Positions 3,399-8,692 of a DNA stretch of 64,000 bases are shown in pieces. Made by a program: the position numbers and the translations under genes. How positions within the stretch are numbered: the stretch's first letter is position 1; each line of letters starts with the position of its first letter. The stretch spans positions 4,712,001 to 4,776,000 of the forward strand of contig NZ_CP063400.1 in the NCBI RefSeq assembly GCF_021729865.1, written 5' to 3'. The stretch is from Hydrogenophaga sp. SL48. GTDB taxonomy: Bacteria; Pseudomonadota; Gammaproteobacteria; Burkholderiales; Burkholderiaceae_C. The notes below the pieces were generated by a model. The model searched no databases. It was not told the DNA's origin and saw only the letters and a program-made list of their open reading frames with translations.

Positions 3399-5081
3399 AT
3401 GAACGACACCGCCTTTGATTTCGTGATCGTCGGCGCCGGCACCGCCGGCTGCCTGCTCGCCAACCGCCTGAGCGCCGATGCCTCCAAACGTGTGTTGTTG
3501 ATCGAGGCCGGCCGCAAGGACGACTACCACTGGATCCATATCCCGGTCGGTTACCTCTACTGCATCGGCAACCCGCGCACCGACTGGCTCTACCAGACCG
3601 AGGCCGACCCGGGGCTCAATGGACGGAAGCTGCGCTACCCGCGCGGCAAGACGCTGGGCGGCTGCTCCAGCATCAACGGCATGATTTACATGCGCGGCCA
3701 GGCGCGCGACTACGACCAGTGGGCGCAGCTGAGCGGCGACAGCGACTGGCGCTGGGAGCGCTGCCTGGCCGACTTCCGCGCGCACGAAGACCACCACAGG
3801 CTCGACGGCGGCAGCGACAGCCTGACCAACCCCGCCTTCGCCCAGCTGCACGGCAACAAGGCCGTGGGCAGCAGCGGCGAGTGGCGCATCGAGAAGCAGC
3901 GCCTGCGCTGGGACGTGCTCGACGCCTTCGCCCAGGCCGCGCAGCAGGCCGGCATCCCCGCCACCGACGACTTCAACCGCGGCGACAACGAGGGCGTGGG
4001 CTACTTCGAGGTGAACCAGAAAGCGGGCTGGCGCTGGAACGCTTCCAAGGCCTTTCTGCGCCCGGTGATGCAGCGGCCCAACCTCACGGTGTGGACCGAG
4101 ACGCAGGTCGAGCGGCTCACGCTGGCGCGCGATCCGTCGGGCGCGCTGCGCTGCACCGGCGCCGAGCTGCGGCGCGGCGGCCAGCGCGTGGCGGTGACGG
4201 CCGCGCGCGAGGTGGTGCTGAGCGCGGGCAGCATCGGCTCGGTGCAGGTGCTGCAACTCTCAGGCATCGGCCCCTCGGCCGTGCTGCAGGCCGCGGGCGT
4301 GCCGGTGCAACACGATCTGCCCGGCGTGGGCGAGAACCTGCAAGACCATCTGCAGATCCGCTCGGTCTACAAGGTCAAGGGCGCGAAAACGCTCAACACC
4401 CTGGCGAACTCGCTCTGGGGCAAGGCCATGATCGGGCTCGAATACGCGCTCACGCGCAGCGGGCCCATGAGCATGTCGCCCAGCCAGCTCGGTGCCTTCA
4501 CCCGGAGCGACCCGGCCCAGCCGCACGCCAACCTCGAATACCACGTGCAGCCGCTCAGCCTCGACGCCTTCGGCGAGCCGCTGCACGGTTTCCCGGCGTT
4601 CACGGCCAGCGTGTGCAACCTCAACCCCACGAGCCGGGGGCATGTGCGCATCCAGTCGCCGCGCTGCGAGGACGCACCCGCCATCGCGCCGAACTACCTG
4701 TCCACGGCGGAAGACCGGCAGGTCGCGGCCGACAGCCTGCGCGTGACGCGGCGCATCGTGGGCCAGCCGGCGATGGCGAAGTACCGGCCCGAGGAGTTCA
4801 AGCCCGGTGTGATGTACCAGAGCGACGACGAACTCGCGCGCCTGGCCGGCGACATCGCCAGCACCATCTTCCACCCGGTGGGCACGACGAAGATGGGCCG
4901 CGTGGAAGGGCAGGGCAGCGACCCGATGGCCGTGGTGGACAGCCACCTGCGCGTGCGCGGCGTGGCGGGGCTGCGCGTGGTGGACGCGGGTGTGATGCCG
5001 ACCATCACCAGCGGCAACACCAACTCGCCGACGCTGATGATCGCCGAGAAGGCGGCGCGCTGGATCGTGTCCGGAGTGTGA
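3399..5081 (+). CDS. GMC-family FAD-dependent oxidoreductase (choline/alcohol dehydrogenase-like)
   Basis: 560 residues. The FAD-binding dinucleotide fold is at the N-terminus (VIVGAGTAGCLLANRL at about residues 8-23, with the acidic LLIEAGRKD after it). The GMC signature follows (YPRGKTLGGCSSINGMIYMRG), then a substrate domain and the C-terminal catalytic block with FHPVGTTKMG and VDAGVMPTITSGNTNSPT. The family oxidises alcohols or choline-like substrates and passes electrons to a quinone or oxygen; the substrate is not determinable here. The ATG at 3399 is chosen because GAGGAG lies 9 bases upstream and the frame upstream is not homologous. The 3' end has a diverged copy at 7685-7741. Confidence 0.9.
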   Translation: MNDTAFDFVIVGAGTAGCLLANRLSADASKRVLLIEAGRKDDYHWIHIPVGYLYCIGNPRTDWLYQTEADPGLNGRKLRYPRGKTLGGCSSINGMIYMRGQARDYDQWAQLSGDSDWRWERCLADFRAHEDHHRLDGGSDSLTNPAFAQLHGNKAVGSSGEWRIEKQRLRWDVLDAFAQAAQQAGIPATDDFNRGDNEGVGYFEVNQKAGWRWNASKAFLRPVMQRPNLTVWTETQVERLTLARDPSGALRCTGAELRRGGQRVAVTAAREVVLSAGSIGSVQVLQLSGIGPSAVLQAAGVPVQHDLPGVGENLQDHLQIRSVYKVKGAKTLNTLANSLWGKAMIGLEYALTRSGPMSMSPSQLGAFTRSDPAQPHANLEYHVQPLSLDAFGEPLHGFPAFTASVCNLNPTSRGHVRIQSPRCEDAPAIAPNYLSTAEDRQVAADSLRVTRRIVGQPAMAKYRPEEFKPGVMYQSDDELARLAGDIASTIFHPVGTTKMGRVEGQGSDPMAVVDSHLRVRGVAGLRVVDAGVMPTITSGNTNSPTLMIAEKAARWIVSGV

Positions 5082-5181
5082 CCCCACGCTCCGCCGCTGC
5101 GCGGGTCGCTGCCCCAAGACCGGGAGGGGGCCCGGTCTGCGCCGGTCCCAGAGGCTGATCCGCCTTGGGGCGGCCCGGCGG
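5082..5181. repeat. Dispersed palindromic repeat R1, type B
   Basis: A GC-rich element begins CCCCACGCTCCGCCGCTGCG right after the GMC stop and ends CTTGGGGCGGCCCGGCGGCT at the kinase stop. The same head and tail recur at 7742, 35208 and 42246, and inverted at 23722, 36288 and 58502. This copy contains extra inverted sequence in the middle. It separates two convergent genes. Confidence 0.7.
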
Positions 5182-6354
5182 CTATTCGCTTTCCCAGAAC
5201 ACCACCTCGTGTGCCTCGGTGGGCAGTGGCGCTTCCCAGCGGGTCAGCATCTTCAGCAGCTTGGCGTTGCTGAGGGTCGTGTCGCGCTGCTGGTTGCGCC
5301 GCAGCAGTTCGGGCAAAGGCTGTTCCAGGTGGACGATCTCCACCTGCGCGTCGTAGGCGTACAGCAGCTCCAGTGTCTTGCTGCGCATCTGCTGCGACAG
5401 GTGCGTGGCGTTCCATACAAAGTCCTGCTTCTGGCGAAGCCAGTGCCGGGCGTCGTCATGGGTACGGTGCGCCACCATGCCTTCGTTCTTGCCGTGCGAA
5501 AGGCCCAGGTCTTCGCGAGCGTCATCGAACGACACCACCGGCAAGCCGGGCCGATGCTGCGATACCCAGGTGTTTTTGCCGCTGGCGGGCAGCCCGCACA
5601 TCACCGTGACGCGCGAACCCGGCCGCTGAAACAGGGCGGCATCGGGGAACAGCTCAGCGCCACGGAAGTACGCCAAGGCGGTGTGCCGGTCGGCAAATTG
5701 GCGGGGCGCTTCCCAGGCCCCTTCGTCACGCGCCAGCACCTCGAAGAGATCGATGTCCTGCAGGTGTTGCGATTGCGTGGCGCAGATGCGGCCCTGCATG
5801 TCGGCTCGGGCCACCGTGACCAGTTCGGCCACGCACAGTTCCCAAGAGAGCTTTCGCGCGGTGTACTCGGGCGCTTGACCCTTGCGGTTGTCGAAGACGA
5901 AGAACGGCACCTGGTGCACCGCGATGATCCGGCAGATCGCCTCGCGCAGTGCCACCGGAACACCTGCCTGCCAGAGCAGCAAGCGCGCATCCACGCAGCC
6001 ACGCCGCGAGTGGCCCGGCTGGGAGATGCGTCCGGAGATCGGGTCGATCACCGTCGTGTCGGGCTTGGCGATGTCGTGCAGCAGCGCCGCCATGAACATC
6101 ACCCATTGGCGTTCGAACGCCGCCTGGGCGAAGTAGGGGCTTTGCCGCAGGCTGTGAATGACCATGCGGGTGTGCAAGCCCACGTTCCCCTCTGCGTGAT
6201 GAACAGGGTCTTGCGGCGTGGCCTCCAGCCGGGCCAGTGCCGGAATCAGCTGACAACAGCGCGACCAATCCAAGGGGTCGCCGTTGCCTGGCAGCAAAGA
6301 CTGGAGGGCCAGATAGCCGTCTTTCGCGGTCGTGTGATGTGTCGAATTTTTCAT
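5182..6354 (-). CDS. HD-domain phosphohydrolase fused to a polynucleotide-kinase-like P-loop domain
   Basis: 390 residues. An HD domain covers about residues 50-200, with the metal doublet in AALLHDIAKPDT (H93-D94) and further histidines at GHSRRG. A P-loop kinase domain runs from about residue 248, with GLPASGKNTW as Walker A (254-263), an acidic SFDDARED block and a basic region near RRNQQRD that could be the lid. HD-kinase proteins of this type, such as Deinococcus radiodurans DRB0098, heal nucleic-acid ends: the HD part removes 3' or cyclic phosphate and the kinase adds 5' phosphate. It starts 4 bp inside the end of the RNA-ligase gene (ATGA overlap), so the two are translationally coupled and likely act as healer and sealer. 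Start at 6354 is supported by AAGGAA just upstream. Substrate is inferred. Confidence 0.82.
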   Translation of the reverse strand: MKNSTHHTTAKDGYLALQSLLPGNGDPLDWSRCCQLIPALARLEATPQDPVHHAEGNVGLHTRMVIHSLRQSPYFAQAAFERQWVMFMAALLHDIAKPDTTVIDPISGRISQPGHSRRGCVDARLLLWQAGVPVALREAICRIIAVHQVPFFVFDNRKGQAPEYTARKLSWELCVAELVTVARADMQGRICATQSQHLQDIDLFEVLARDEGAWEAPRQFADRHTALAYFRGAELFPDAALFQRPGSRVTVMCGLPASGKNTWVSQHRPGLPVVSFDDAREDLGLSHGKNEGMVAHRTHDDARHWLRQKQDFVWNATHLSQQMRSKTLELLYAYDAQVEIVHLEQPLPELLRRNQQRDTTLSNAKLLKMLTRWEAPLPTEAHEVVFWESE

Positions 6355-7286
6355 GGTTTGTTCCTTCGGATGCGGCGCTGGTCTTGCGTGCGGTCGGCCA
6401 TGGCTTCGCGCAAGGCGTCCAGGCCAAACAAGGTGACCAGGCCCAGGTGCTCCCAGCTCAGGGTCAGTTGAGGTGCATACAGATCCACTCCCGCGGACAA
6501 CTGGTTGGGCAGGGTGGGTCGTTCGCTGTGGTGCGATCCCGAGTCCAGGATGGTCTGCACGAAATCCGGGCGAACCAGCTTGAACCGGCCTTGCACACCG
6601 TTCTCGTCTTCCAGTTTCAGATACAGCCCTTCGGCCAGATCCGACGCATCGGTCTGACGCCAACCGGTGGCGGTGTCTTGGCGGTGTTGCGCCAGCGCCT
6701 GCTCGAAGCGGACTTTCCAATGGTTCGACTTGGCCAACGAATGCCGAACGAGGCTCCACAGGAGCCTGGCCTGCACCGGCATCGGCCCCGCGTACAGCAC
6801 CGGCACCGACAGCACGGGCAGGCCGGCCAGCAGGTCTTGGCGCCTGGGCGTCGACAGAAAACACGAGGTCTGCCGGTCCCAGACATCGAACTCGTGGAAG
6901 TAGTGCGGCAACCGGTCGTAGAAGACCGAGTGTTTGGCGTAGGCCCATTCGCCGTACATGACGTACCGGTCGCCCAAGCGTTCGAACAGCCGATCGGCAT
7001 GTGTGTTGGCCCAGACATGCAAGGGCGAAAACTGCCGCTCGCGCGCGCCACCCATCAGGTAGTGACCACGCGACTGCAGCAGCAACCCGCCGTTCGCGGT
7101 GAAGGACACGGCGCAGTTGGCGCCATCGATCTTTTCTTCCACCACAACGTGGCTGCCGGCGAGGTCTGCCAAGCGCTGCACTCCGGGCTCGTCGCCCGTC
7201 TGCAGGCGGGAGCCCTCAAGGTGGATGGTGCGTGGGTACCGCAGCAATGCGGTCGATGCCAGAACACTGGCATGAAGTGAGTTCAT
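6351..7286 (-). CDS. ATP-dependent RNA ligase, Rnl2-like nucleotidyltransferase
   Basis: 311 residues. The covalent nucleotidyltransferase motifs appear in order: motif I EKIDGANC with adenylation lysine K52, motif III near YGEWAY (111-116), motif IIIa FHEFDVWD (130-137), motif IV EGLYLKLE and motif V GRFKLVRPDF. This is the RNA-ligase set of the T4 Rnl2-like family. It is first in a two-gene minus-strand operon with an HD/kinase protein, which suggests a self-contained RNA end-repair module. No RtcR-type activator or RtcB is present nearby. The gene starts at 7286 with AGGAGA in its leader. The module sits between the GMC gene and a diverged copy of the GMC 3' end. RNA is the expected substrate from the family; DNA nick sealing cannot be ruled out. 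Confidence 0.85.
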   Translation of the reverse strand: MNSLHASVLASTALLRYPRTIHLEGSRLQTGDEPGVQRLADLAGSHVVVEEKIDGANCAVSFTANGGLLLQSRGHYLMGGARERQFSPLHVWANTHADRLFERLGDRYVMYGEWAYAKHSVFYDRLPHYFHEFDVWDRQTSCFLSTPRRQDLLAGLPVLSVPVLYAGPMPVQARLLWSLVRHSLAKSNHWKVRFEQALAQHRQDTATGWRQTDASDLAEGLYLKLEDENGVQGRFKLVRPDFVQTILDSGSHHSERPTLPNQLSAGVDLYAPQLTLSWEHLGLVTLFGLDALREAMADRTQDQRRIRRNKP

Positions 7287-7684
7287 GGTGATCTCCTGAA
7301 AACAAATTCAAGAGCCACATGCCCGGTACGCAAAACGCAAGCGGGGCATGGAGGCTTCTCAGGGGAAGCCGATCACCGGGGGCAGTCAGTGTGCTTGCTG
7401 CTGCTGTGGGACACGGGTATCGCCATTGCAAGAACTGGCCAGGTCATGGCACCTGGAACAGTTCATGTGGGCAACACCGTGTCGCGACAGCGGGTATCGA
7501 CTTCAGACAGTGGTGATGCAGCGGGACACTTCAGACTCCTGGGGATTTCCGATGGGACGACGCTCACCATGAGCGGTCGCAGGAAATGCAAGGGGCGCAT
7601 TCTCGGTGGGGCCAAGCGCAGGCGTCAATGGACACGTTGTCGTGTCGCCACACGCGACGTACCCGCTGGGCGGGCAAGAAGGGT
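7287..7684. other. Non-coding leader region of the RNA-repair operon
   Basis: About 400 bp with no convincing gene on either strand. It must hold the promoter of the leftward RNA-ligase operon. Visible structure: a GGCTTC/GAAGCC hairpin at about 7352-7369, an inverted repeat CCAGGT-N6-ACCTGG at 7439-7456 that resembles an operator, and two near-copies of CGGGTATCG near 7418 and 7493. Base composition is less GC-rich than the flanking genes, consistent with acquired DNA. Confidence 0.4.
7439..7456. promoter_or_regulatory. Operator-like inverted repeat upstream of the RNA ligase
   Basis: CCAGGT and ACCTGG form a perfect 6-bp inverted repeat with a 6-bp spacer, about 155 bp upstream of the RNA-ligase start. 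The size suits a dimeric regulator, but no cognate regulator is encoded in the cassette. Assignment is by symmetry only. Confidence 0.25.
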
Positions 7685-7741
7685 AGCCCCACTTTGATGA
7701 TTGCGGAGAAGGCGGCGCGGTGGATCGTGGCCGGAGTGTGA
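7685..7741 (+). pseudogene. Diverged remnant of the GMC oxidoreductase 3' end (18 codons plus stop)
   Basis: The frame reads SPTLMIAEKAARWIVAGV then TGA. The intact GMC gene at 5025-5081 ends in the same 18 residues except for one Ser-to-Ala change. Most base differences are synonymous third-position changes (CTG/TTG, ATC/ATT, GCC/GCG, CGC/CGG), so this is an old or foreign allele rather than a recent duplicate. Homology continues past the stop into the adjoining type B repeat on both sides. The RNA-repair operon lies exactly between the two copies. Confidence 0.85.
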
Positions 7742-7816
7742 CCCCCACGCTTCTCCGCTGCGCGGGTCGCTGCCCCCCGAGGGGCTGGGCCTGCCTTGGG
7801 GCGGCCCGGCGGCTGG
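7742..7816. repeat. Dispersed palindromic repeat R2, type B
   Basis: It starts with CCCCCACGCTTCTCCGCTGC and ends CCTTGGGGCGGCCCGGCGGC, matching the head and tail of R1. It directly follows the GMC 3'-end remnant, just as R1 follows the intact GMC gene. The remaining bases to 7963 hold the promoter region of the next two-component system, with no gene seen. Confidence 0.7.
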
Positions 7817-7963
7817 CCCGATGAACCCCACTCCACCTTGGCACTGCCTTGCGGCGGATCGTGTCCACTGCGTAAAGAAGCTGACACACAGCCTTCCGTC
7901 GGTCCTCCTTGCCTACACTGGCACGCTGAGCGCTTTTCCCGGCACCCCTGGCGGTGCGGTCCC

Positions 7964-8692
7964 ATGCCCGAGACCCCTTCTTCCCCGACCCCCCTGATCC
8001 ATTGCCTGCTGGTCGACGACGACCCGGACATCCGCGAGTTGCTCACCGGTTTCCTGCGGCCCTTCGGCATGGTGCTCGACACCGTGGCCGACGGCGTGGC
8101 GCTGCGCCAGCGCCTGCCGGCCGGCGGGGTCGATGTGCTGTTGCTCGACCTGATGCTGCCCGGCGAAGACGGGCTGAGCCTGTGCCAGTGGCTGCGGCCG
8201 CTGTGGCCCCGGCTGCCGGTGATCATGCTCACCGCTCAGGGCGACATGCACTCGCGCGTGCTCGGCCTGGAGCTGGGCGCCGACGACTACCTGCCCAAGC
8301 CCTTCGAGCCGCGCGAGCTGGTGGCGCGCATCCGCGCGGTGCTGCGCGGCGGCCCCGGGCCGGCCGTGCCACCCGTGCGCCACCGCATCGGTGGCTGGAT
8401 CTTTGACCGTGTGCAACGCCGCCTGCAGTCGCCCGAGGGTGTGGTCACCCCGCTGTCGGCCGCCGAGTACCGCCTGCTCGTGGCCTTCATCGACCACCCG
8501 GGCCAGGGGCTCTCGCGCGAGCGCCTGCTCGAACTCACCCGCGCGCCCGGCGTGGACGCCAACGAACGCAGCATCGACCTCGCGGTGTCGCGCCTGCGCG
8601 CGAAGTTCGGCGGCACCGACGGGCTGTCGGGTCCGATCCGCACCCTGCGTGGCATGGGCTATGTGTTCCAGCCGCTGGAGGGCTCGCGATGA
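7964..8692 (+). CDS. OmpR-family two-component response regulator
   Basis: 242 residues. A receiver domain spans about 13-125, with acidic VDDD (17-20), phospho-acceptor D62 in LLLDLMLPGEDG, the Thr of MLTAQ and the Lys of LPKPFEPRE. A winged-helix DNA-binding domain of OmpR/PhoB type follows and ends TLRGMGYVFQPLE. The ATG at 7964 puts the protein start a few residues before the receiver fold; the frame is open further upstream but that part is repeat and spacer. Its stop overlaps the start of the kinase gene, so the pair forms one operon. The signal is unknown. Confidence 0.92.
   Translation: MPETPSSPTPLIHCLLVDDDPDIRELLTGFLRPFGMVLDTVADGVALRQRLPAGGVDVLLLDLMLPGEDGLSLCQWLRPLWPRLPVIMLTAQGDMHSRVLGLELGADDYLPKPFEPRELVARIRAVLRGGPGPAVPPVRHRIGGWIFDRVQRRLQSPEGVVTPLSAAEYRLLVAFIDHPGQGLSRERLLELTRAPGVDANERSIDLAVSRLRAKFGGTDGLSGPIRTLRGMGYVFQPLEGSR

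Follow-up and report, generated by a model that had tools for sequence, protein, structure and literature searches.

How does a small RNA-repair operon come to lie between two copies of the same gene end, and what could tell it when to act? The question is raised by Hydrogenophaga sp. SL48, in a stretch of 64,000 nucleotides (nt) (hereafter the window, positions 4712001-4776000 of a 5.43-Mb single-contig genome) in which an operon for the healing and sealing of RNA ends, consisting of a leader, an ATP-dependent RNA ligase gene and a gene for an HD-Pnk protein, lies between a GMC oxidoreductase gene and a response regulator gene. The acquisition of this operon is supported by empty sites in relatives, by the two GMC gene ends that bracket it and by its patchy distribution. 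The whole explanation put forward here, in which an acquired operon entered by a crossover at the GMC gene end and is governed by a ribosome-sensing leader, is one that we hold with slightly better than even confidence. To our knowledge, the sensing of broken tRNA by bacteria is understood for few systems. If our reading is true, the repair operon would be under an RNA switch read by ribosomes, a sensor built from the failing machinery itself. The bracketed insertion also offers a fresh example of a small repair cassette entering a chromosome at a gene 3′ end without an integrase.

Two copies of a gene end bracket the operon

The resident GMC gene (3399-5081, plus strand; Pfam GMC_oxred_N and GMC_oxred_C) is intact and shares 94% DNA identity with its match in the relative G041. 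Its last 18 codons and stop codon (copy A, 5025-5081, plus strand) are followed by a dispersed repeat resembling repetitive extragenic palindromes (REP-like repeat, 5082-5183, plus strand), which extends 2 nt into the kinase stop codon. The same gene end recurs on the far side of the operon as copy B (7685-7741, plus strand), truncated on its 5′ side and again followed by the REP-like repeat (7742-7816, plus strand). The repeat search aligned 58 nt at 88% identity (5028-5085 with 7688-7745), and the post-stop part aligned over 47 nt at 83% and then over 22 nt at 100%. Between copies A and B, 47 of the 57 nt are identical and eight codons have changed, seven of them synonymously, where a synonymous fraction of 0.265 was expected (binomial P of 0.00057). 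Both the recurrence of the gene end at 7685 and the mainly synonymous nature of its differences, as reported in an earlier note on this DNA, are therefore real.

A search of the genome itself with the 160-nt query 5025-5184 returned 78 matches, among which only the GMC gene and the copy at 7685 extend past query position 48, all the others being the post-stop REP-like repeat. Because just two genome sites share the coding part, the duplicated gene end is specific. The earlier note had also pointed to the recurrence of the repeat; it does follow both ends, but as a genome-wide dispersed element it is no evidence by itself. Many copies of the repeat (CCCCCACGCTCCGCCGCTGCGCGGGTCGCTGCCCC...) are present in this genome, and in some relatives, G004 and G024 among them, it is arranged in tandem arrays of about 80-84 bp. 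With the query 7675-7745, matches were found in 49 of the 67 genomes of the genus, and most of them begin at 7685, which marks the left edge of copy B; the possibility, raised in the earlier note, that the 7685 copy is the end of a longer GMC gene fails, since the matches stop at this point. Outside the SL48 genome, the best matches of copy B are G041 (7695-7745) and G017 (7685-7729), both at 96%. A further remnant of the ancestral GMC end (remnant C, 7856-7875, plus strand, with the frame W-I-V-S-T-A-stop), apparently displaced earlier by the REP-like repeat, is common to the window and G041 and matches the intact GMC end of G017.

The interval between the two ends (5182-7684) contains the kinase and ligase genes on the minus strand, overlapping by four bases, and then about 400 nt of leader. 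The ligase and the kinase are its sole Pfam-recognised genes; six further open reading frames (ORFs) overlapping them gave nothing above the Pfam cut-off.

Empty sites and a patchy distribution

The GMC gene was matched in 65 of the 67 genus genomes, in a few of them through paralogs alone. Among the matches listed, the block of the response regulator gene (7964-8692, plus strand), the right neighbour of the empty site, aligned at length in G041, G017, G007, G014, G006, G016 and G052 as well as in the window's genome, and in six of these (G041, G017, G007, G014, G006 and G052) it lies within about 140 bases of the GMC end, with one GMC end and neither ligase nor kinase at the site. In G041, the sequences that flank the operon in the window overlap by about 80 bases, which represent the gene end and its repeat in single copy. 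The GMC end and the response-regulator block of G016 are separated by about 6 kb of other DNA. The earlier note had predicted such sites if the operon was acquired together with a donor-derived gene end, and they support the acquisition; whether an integrating element or plain recombination was at work, and which parts came from a donor, we still infer.

Among the 67 genus genomes, two carry the ligase DNA at near full length, the window's and G007 (68%, on another contig); in one other it is truncated where a contig stops, and 13 more give only short matches of 23-88 nt. Relatives of the ligase are likewise patchy in the family, in which 34 of the 399 genomes have one and 20, the window's included, are near full length at at least 53% identity, and a class-wide genome set yielded matches in 3 of 369 (again including the window's). 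Relatives are present in 36 plasmid records, 13 of which cover more than 80% of the query and none of which reaches 60% identity, and in 11 viral loci; two of the three best viral loci, which were inspected, carry both genes. The interval has a GC content of 0.60-0.67, lower than the 0.69-0.77 of the GMC body and the regulator genes that adjoin it.

How the operon may have entered

The GMC stop codon was apparently the entry point of the REP-like repeat. In G017 the downstream sequence follows the GMC end directly; at this point G041 and the window have the repeat in common and, beyond it, the older-end remnant (7856-7875). Since G017 lacks the repeat and the other two share both repeat and remnant, the repeat probably entered first, in the common ancestor of G041 and the window's genome, and the operon afterwards, most likely after the split from G041. 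The incoming molecule would have brought a GMC 3′ end with its REP-like repeat from a close relative, and a Campbell-like single crossover would have made the GMC gene whole again at one edge of the operon, with copy B remaining at the other edge. The codons of the two copies form a mosaic in comparison with G041: the resemblance to G041 lies in the first codons of copy A and in the last codons of copy B, whose first codons are G017-like. One crossover between the resident and the incoming GMC end could produce this reciprocal pattern, and we infer such an event within the block from about eight markers.

Two ends would also result if the GMC end had been duplicated locally, either by the REP-like element or during the insertion, and the copies had then diverged. 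An older event of this kind did leave remnant C behind the REP-like repeat in the window's genome and in G041. However, copy B differs from copy A at seven synonymous codons (including TCG to AGC) and has AGC CCC ACT TTG in common with G017, which argues that it evolved elsewhere under coding constraint, and we regard local duplication as very improbable.

Gene-end brackets are rare around operons of this kind. The flanks were scanned for direct repeats at the DNA level in 20 loci including the window and in 77 named loci (genomes partly shared), and in translation in 75 named loci plus the 20; only the window and Roseibium album (L245) are bracketed by a gene end, and a conserved att-type site was rejected for this reason. 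In R. album, an intact gene, HAD-phosphatase-like by its DLDGTLTDP motif alone, stands before the operon, and a decayed copy of its 3′ part (252 nt, 74%) follows directly after it, so that the kinase frame (stop at 5469) ends inside the fragment. In the sister species (L244) the operon follows the same kind of gene, with no detectable fragment. The count excludes repeats of 15-23 nt (L122, L126/L205 and L238), inverted matches (L117 and L119), a 24-residue match (L232) and distant paralogs (L184/L121). A Pelomonas genome (L126, L205) has a 23-nt direct repeat (87%) on either side of the operon.

The gene-end bracket in the window represents a straightforward instance of acquisition at the 3′ end of a gene. 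Several observations weigh against the crossover as its cause: ORF and Pfam scans of the interval revealed no integrase or recombinase, in agreement with the earlier note, and the crossover is drawn from those few markers, with private changes (GCC in copy A; ATT and CGG in copy B) that require extra mutations. The operon could instead have come in when donor DNA recombined in the ordinary way, homologously or illegitimately, as in a transformation event with one homologous and one non-homologous end. The second GMC end would then be an incidental flank; we consider this reading less likely than not. It would fit the lack of an integrase, the sharp end of copy B at 7685 and the presence of a gene-end bracket in just two of the loci scanned, and also the orientation of the operon relative to the bracketing gene, which is opposite in the window and in R. 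album and thus argues against a single att-type mechanism. Nevertheless, a single crossover within the block predicts just such a reciprocal mosaic of the two copies; after illegitimate joining, copy B should be pure donor sequence, whereas its 3′ half is G041-like. Entry by a single crossover at the GMC end is therefore the reading that we retain.

The ligase and HD-Pnk proteins

The ligase gene (6351-7286, minus strand; motif EEKIDGAN) matches Pfam RNA_ligase at 1.3e-36, and EEK[LIVMF]DGAN is present in 77 of 77 relatives. In Foldseek, a Naegleria RNA ligase came closest to its AlphaFold model (predicted local distance difference test, pLDDT, 88.4), and T4 Rnl2 ranked high as well, at a modest TM-score of about 0.44; a sequence search of solved chains with the ligase gave no match. 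The adjoining gene (5182-6354, minus strand) encodes an HD phosphoesterase domain and a P-loop polynucleotide kinase. At E ≤ 0.01, AAA_33 was detected in 18 of 18 family members and HD in 17 of 18, the HD match of the window's own protein being under the Pfam cut-off (16.9 versus 22 bits). Profile searches matched poly A polymerase over its HD part and both Pnkp and T4 Pnk over their kinase parts, and the AlphaFold model (pLDDT 92.7) found mammalian PNKP and the Clostridium thermocellum Pnkp kinase in Foldseek, together with tRNA processing enzyme structures for the HD part. H53, H61, D94, H115, H147 and D185 are invariant in the family. The Walker A P-loop usually ends in GK[S/T]; in 69 of 77 relatives its ending is GKN or GKD, and 8 relatives did not fit the pattern used.

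The kinase gene adjoins the ligase gene in all 20 loci taken (19 family loci at at least 53% identity besides the window's, and one genus fragment) and was found in 77 of the 80 named loci. In a Variovorax megaplasmid (L260), a hypothetical protein (3966-4310) is encoded between the two genes, and no leader was seen. With an HD domain N-terminal to the kinase in one protein and an adjacent ligase with the KxDG motif, the operon is a new example of the known HD-Pnk/RNA ligase type. Proteins of the HD-Pnk family convert RNA ends with a 2′,3′-cyclic phosphate and a 5′-OH into 3′-OH and 5′-phosphate ends, which the ligase seals. Judging from these families, the operon most likely mends cleaved tRNA; a PADLOC defence scan gave no match.

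A leader with a minimal reading frame

The operon leader (7287-7545, minus strand) has homologs before related operons and folds strongly (z of -4.59 over 7260-7545). It contains a GTG...TGA ORF of 8 codons (7503-7529, minus strand; putative peptide VSRCITTV) with AGGAG upstream, and further upstream lies a promoter-like TTGACG-18-GAGAAT (7599-7628, minus strand; a consensus match only). A segment overlapping the leader stop codon (arm 1, 7496-7504, minus strand) can pair with one near the ligase start (arm 2, 7365-7373, minus strand) to form a helix, P1 (GAAGTCGAT / ATCGGCTTC; p of 0.005 against dinucleotide shuffles), and arm 2 can also pair locally with 7353-7358, as the 5′ strand of a hairpin.

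When the 80 named loci and the window were compared, 69 had a candidate ORF of 7-10 codons (the starts in L178, L179 and L236 being set by hand), with 8 codons before the stop in 44, 9 in 23 and 7 in 2. The 69 include L250, an alphaproteobacterial locus whose candidate is probably spurious; outside them are L231 (ambiguous and dropped), L254 (no candidate) and ten other alphaproteobacterial loci, in which an ATG is followed at once by a stop. All 11 alphaproteobacterial loci have ATGTAA or ATGTAG at most 190 nt upstream of the ligase match, where 0.52 would be expected from shuffles. A Shine-Dalgarno-like sequence precedes the leader ORF in many loci, not all. The putative leader peptide varies (VPRFAVITL, VPRFFAITC, MPVVNTLS, VPANIRPFA, VSAIRQFA and MSRRTRSC), while the ORF length and the stop codon beside arm 1 are kept. 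Arm 1 at the leader stop is typically GCCGACGAC and the complementary segment near the ligase start typically GTCGTCGGC, for example GCCGACAAC / GTTGTCGGT in Variovorax and GCTGACGA / TCGTCAGC in Janthinobacterium.

P1 was the sole helix predicted by RNAalifold from a plain, unguided MAFFT alignment of 34 leaders, taken from the 55 that passed a helix filter by leaving out near-duplicates and the longest. In these, 95.4% of the P1 cells are paired, compared with at most 65.1% in slid controls, a fraction biased by the preselection of the leaders for the helix. P1 cells changed on both sides number 17, versus 4.5 in shuffled alignments (0/500), and the covariation score is also supportive. When 68 loci were tested one by one against dinucleotide shuffles, P1 passed at p ≤ 0.05 in 38 and at p ≤ 0.01 in 22. 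Beyond that bias, other results tell against a conserved helix. Two of the five P1 covariation measures fail to beat shuffles: doubly changed pairs (3 versus 2.0, 119/500) and pair types (11 versus 9.9, 101/500). The shuffles for single loci kept the ORF choice fixed and did not repeat it, and the nearest relatives (Hydrogenophaga flava, Ideonella, Acidovorax and L182) fail the helix test (p of 0.38-0.72), as do Pelomonas and Delftia. Among seven plasmid relatives checked by eye, Pseudomonas aeruginosa pF051 has both the ORF (VPCTSQLA) and the helix and a cyanobacterial plasmid carries two ATGTAA; the five with more distant ligases have neither leader form near the gene, which again weighs on the same side. 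The two phage contigs with both genes were scanned for the ATG-stop form alone, and no ATG-TAA/TAG was found.

Where searched, no Rfam 15 family matched the leader. In the window (E up to 1), nothing was found at the leader, and two sub-threshold ALIL matches lay inside the genes; at the gathering thresholds, a search of 12 of the 80 named loci gave only RNase P beside the H. flava operon. In that species (L178) the operon adjoins the 3′ end of the RNase P RNA gene, with the kinase ending at 5524 and rnpB at 5561-5941 on the opposite strand. There are no tRNA genes in the window, and a scan of the upstream regions for a sigma-54 promoter pattern found no consistent site. Among literature titles and abstract starts, a coverage outside which most subscription journals fall, no such leader was described.

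How the leader may switch

The leader looks like a translational attenuator. On the one hand, a ribosome reaching the leader stop would cover arm 1, and arm 2 and its surroundings would help to hide the ligase start (OFF). On the other hand, a ribosome held early would leave arm 1 free, so that P1 could form and expose the ligase start (ON). Stalling, as with cut tRNAs, would thus switch repair on. In the modelling, the ligase start costs on average 4.2 kcal/mol more to open with a ribosome at the leader stop than with an early one, compared with 0.2 in controls in which the covered segment was shuffled (12 per locus); the shift is above 1 in 56 of the 69 loci and above all 12 controls in 44 of the 69. 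The probability of P1 exceeds 0.5 in 32 of the 69 loci with an early ribosome, in 7 with no ribosome and in none with a ribosome at the stop. The early-held ribosome thus favours P1, which fits a switch turning repair on when elongation fails.

Other results of the modelling count against the switch. The ribosome footprints were our own choice, P1 exceeds the above probability with an early ribosome in just those 32 loci, and the shift is below -1, thus of opposite sign, in three. Relative to naked RNA the effect of a ribosome at the stop is smaller, the ligase start being harder to open by more than 0.5 in 43 of the 69 loci and easier in 11. In the window itself, the energy shift of 5.5 is below its highest control (6.5), and P1 loses to the local hairpin, with a probability of at most 0.01. 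The window leader has the parts and predicts the switch poorly; the leaders of the window and of its nearest relatives make the weakest cases.

Instead of opening up the ligase start, the leader could work through transcription attenuation or protection of the mRNA, and the small ORF would then be incidental. A T-rich stretch after arm 2 in several Pseudomonas and Burkholderia leaders is consistent with this, as is the lack of conservation of the leader peptide sequence. Against it, no terminator-like site was found in the window leader, the ORF keeps its length and its stop beside arm 1 even though the peptide changes, and the alphaproteobacterial form retains the ATG-stop alone; we consider such a mode unlikely. 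That the ligase/HD-Pnk operons of Proteobacteria are under an undescribed translational attenuator, with an ORF of 7-9 codons (an ATG-stop in Alphaproteobacteria) and no protein sensor, is a tentative proposal to which we give somewhat less than even confidence.

Comparison with known systems

Genomic islands at gene 3′ ends leave an intact gene on one side and a displaced 3′ fragment on the other. The SL48 operon resembles them in its direct gene-end repeats and in the empty site with one end in relatives; unlike them, it has no integrase, is a very small insert and shows no conserved site among its relatives.

In the HD-Pnk/RNA ligase pair of Runella slithyformis, an N-terminal HD domain precedes a C-terminal P-loop kinase and the ligase gene is adjacent. 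The window's pair has the same domain order and an adjacent ligase, whereas the P-loop ending described above, GK[N/D] in most relatives, differs from the usual GK[S/T].

In leader-peptide attenuators of the erm type, the position of the ribosome on a short ORF decides which of the mutually exclusive helices forms, and thereby whether the following start is hidden or exposed. The leader studied here differs from them in its unconserved peptide, in its ATG-stop form in Alphaproteobacteria and in its presumed role in RNA repair, not drug resistance.

In Deinococcus radiodurans, DRB0098-DRB0100 form a putative operon that encodes an HD and polynucleotide kinase protein and an adenylating ligase; the ligase bound AMP, DNA or RNA ligation by it was not observed, and the operon, with a third and weakly macro-domain-like gene (DRB0099), is reported to be upregulated on irradiation (PMC1997131). 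The likeness lies in the HD-kinase protein beside a ligase and the difference in DRB0099, which belongs to the Deinococcus operon. In Salmonella, the RtcB/RtcA operon with RtcR provides RNA repair that is induced by RNA damage in the form of tRNA fragments (PMC7790460). The Rtc system uses another ligase, and the place that the RNA leader may take in the operon described here is held there by a protein activator, RtcR.

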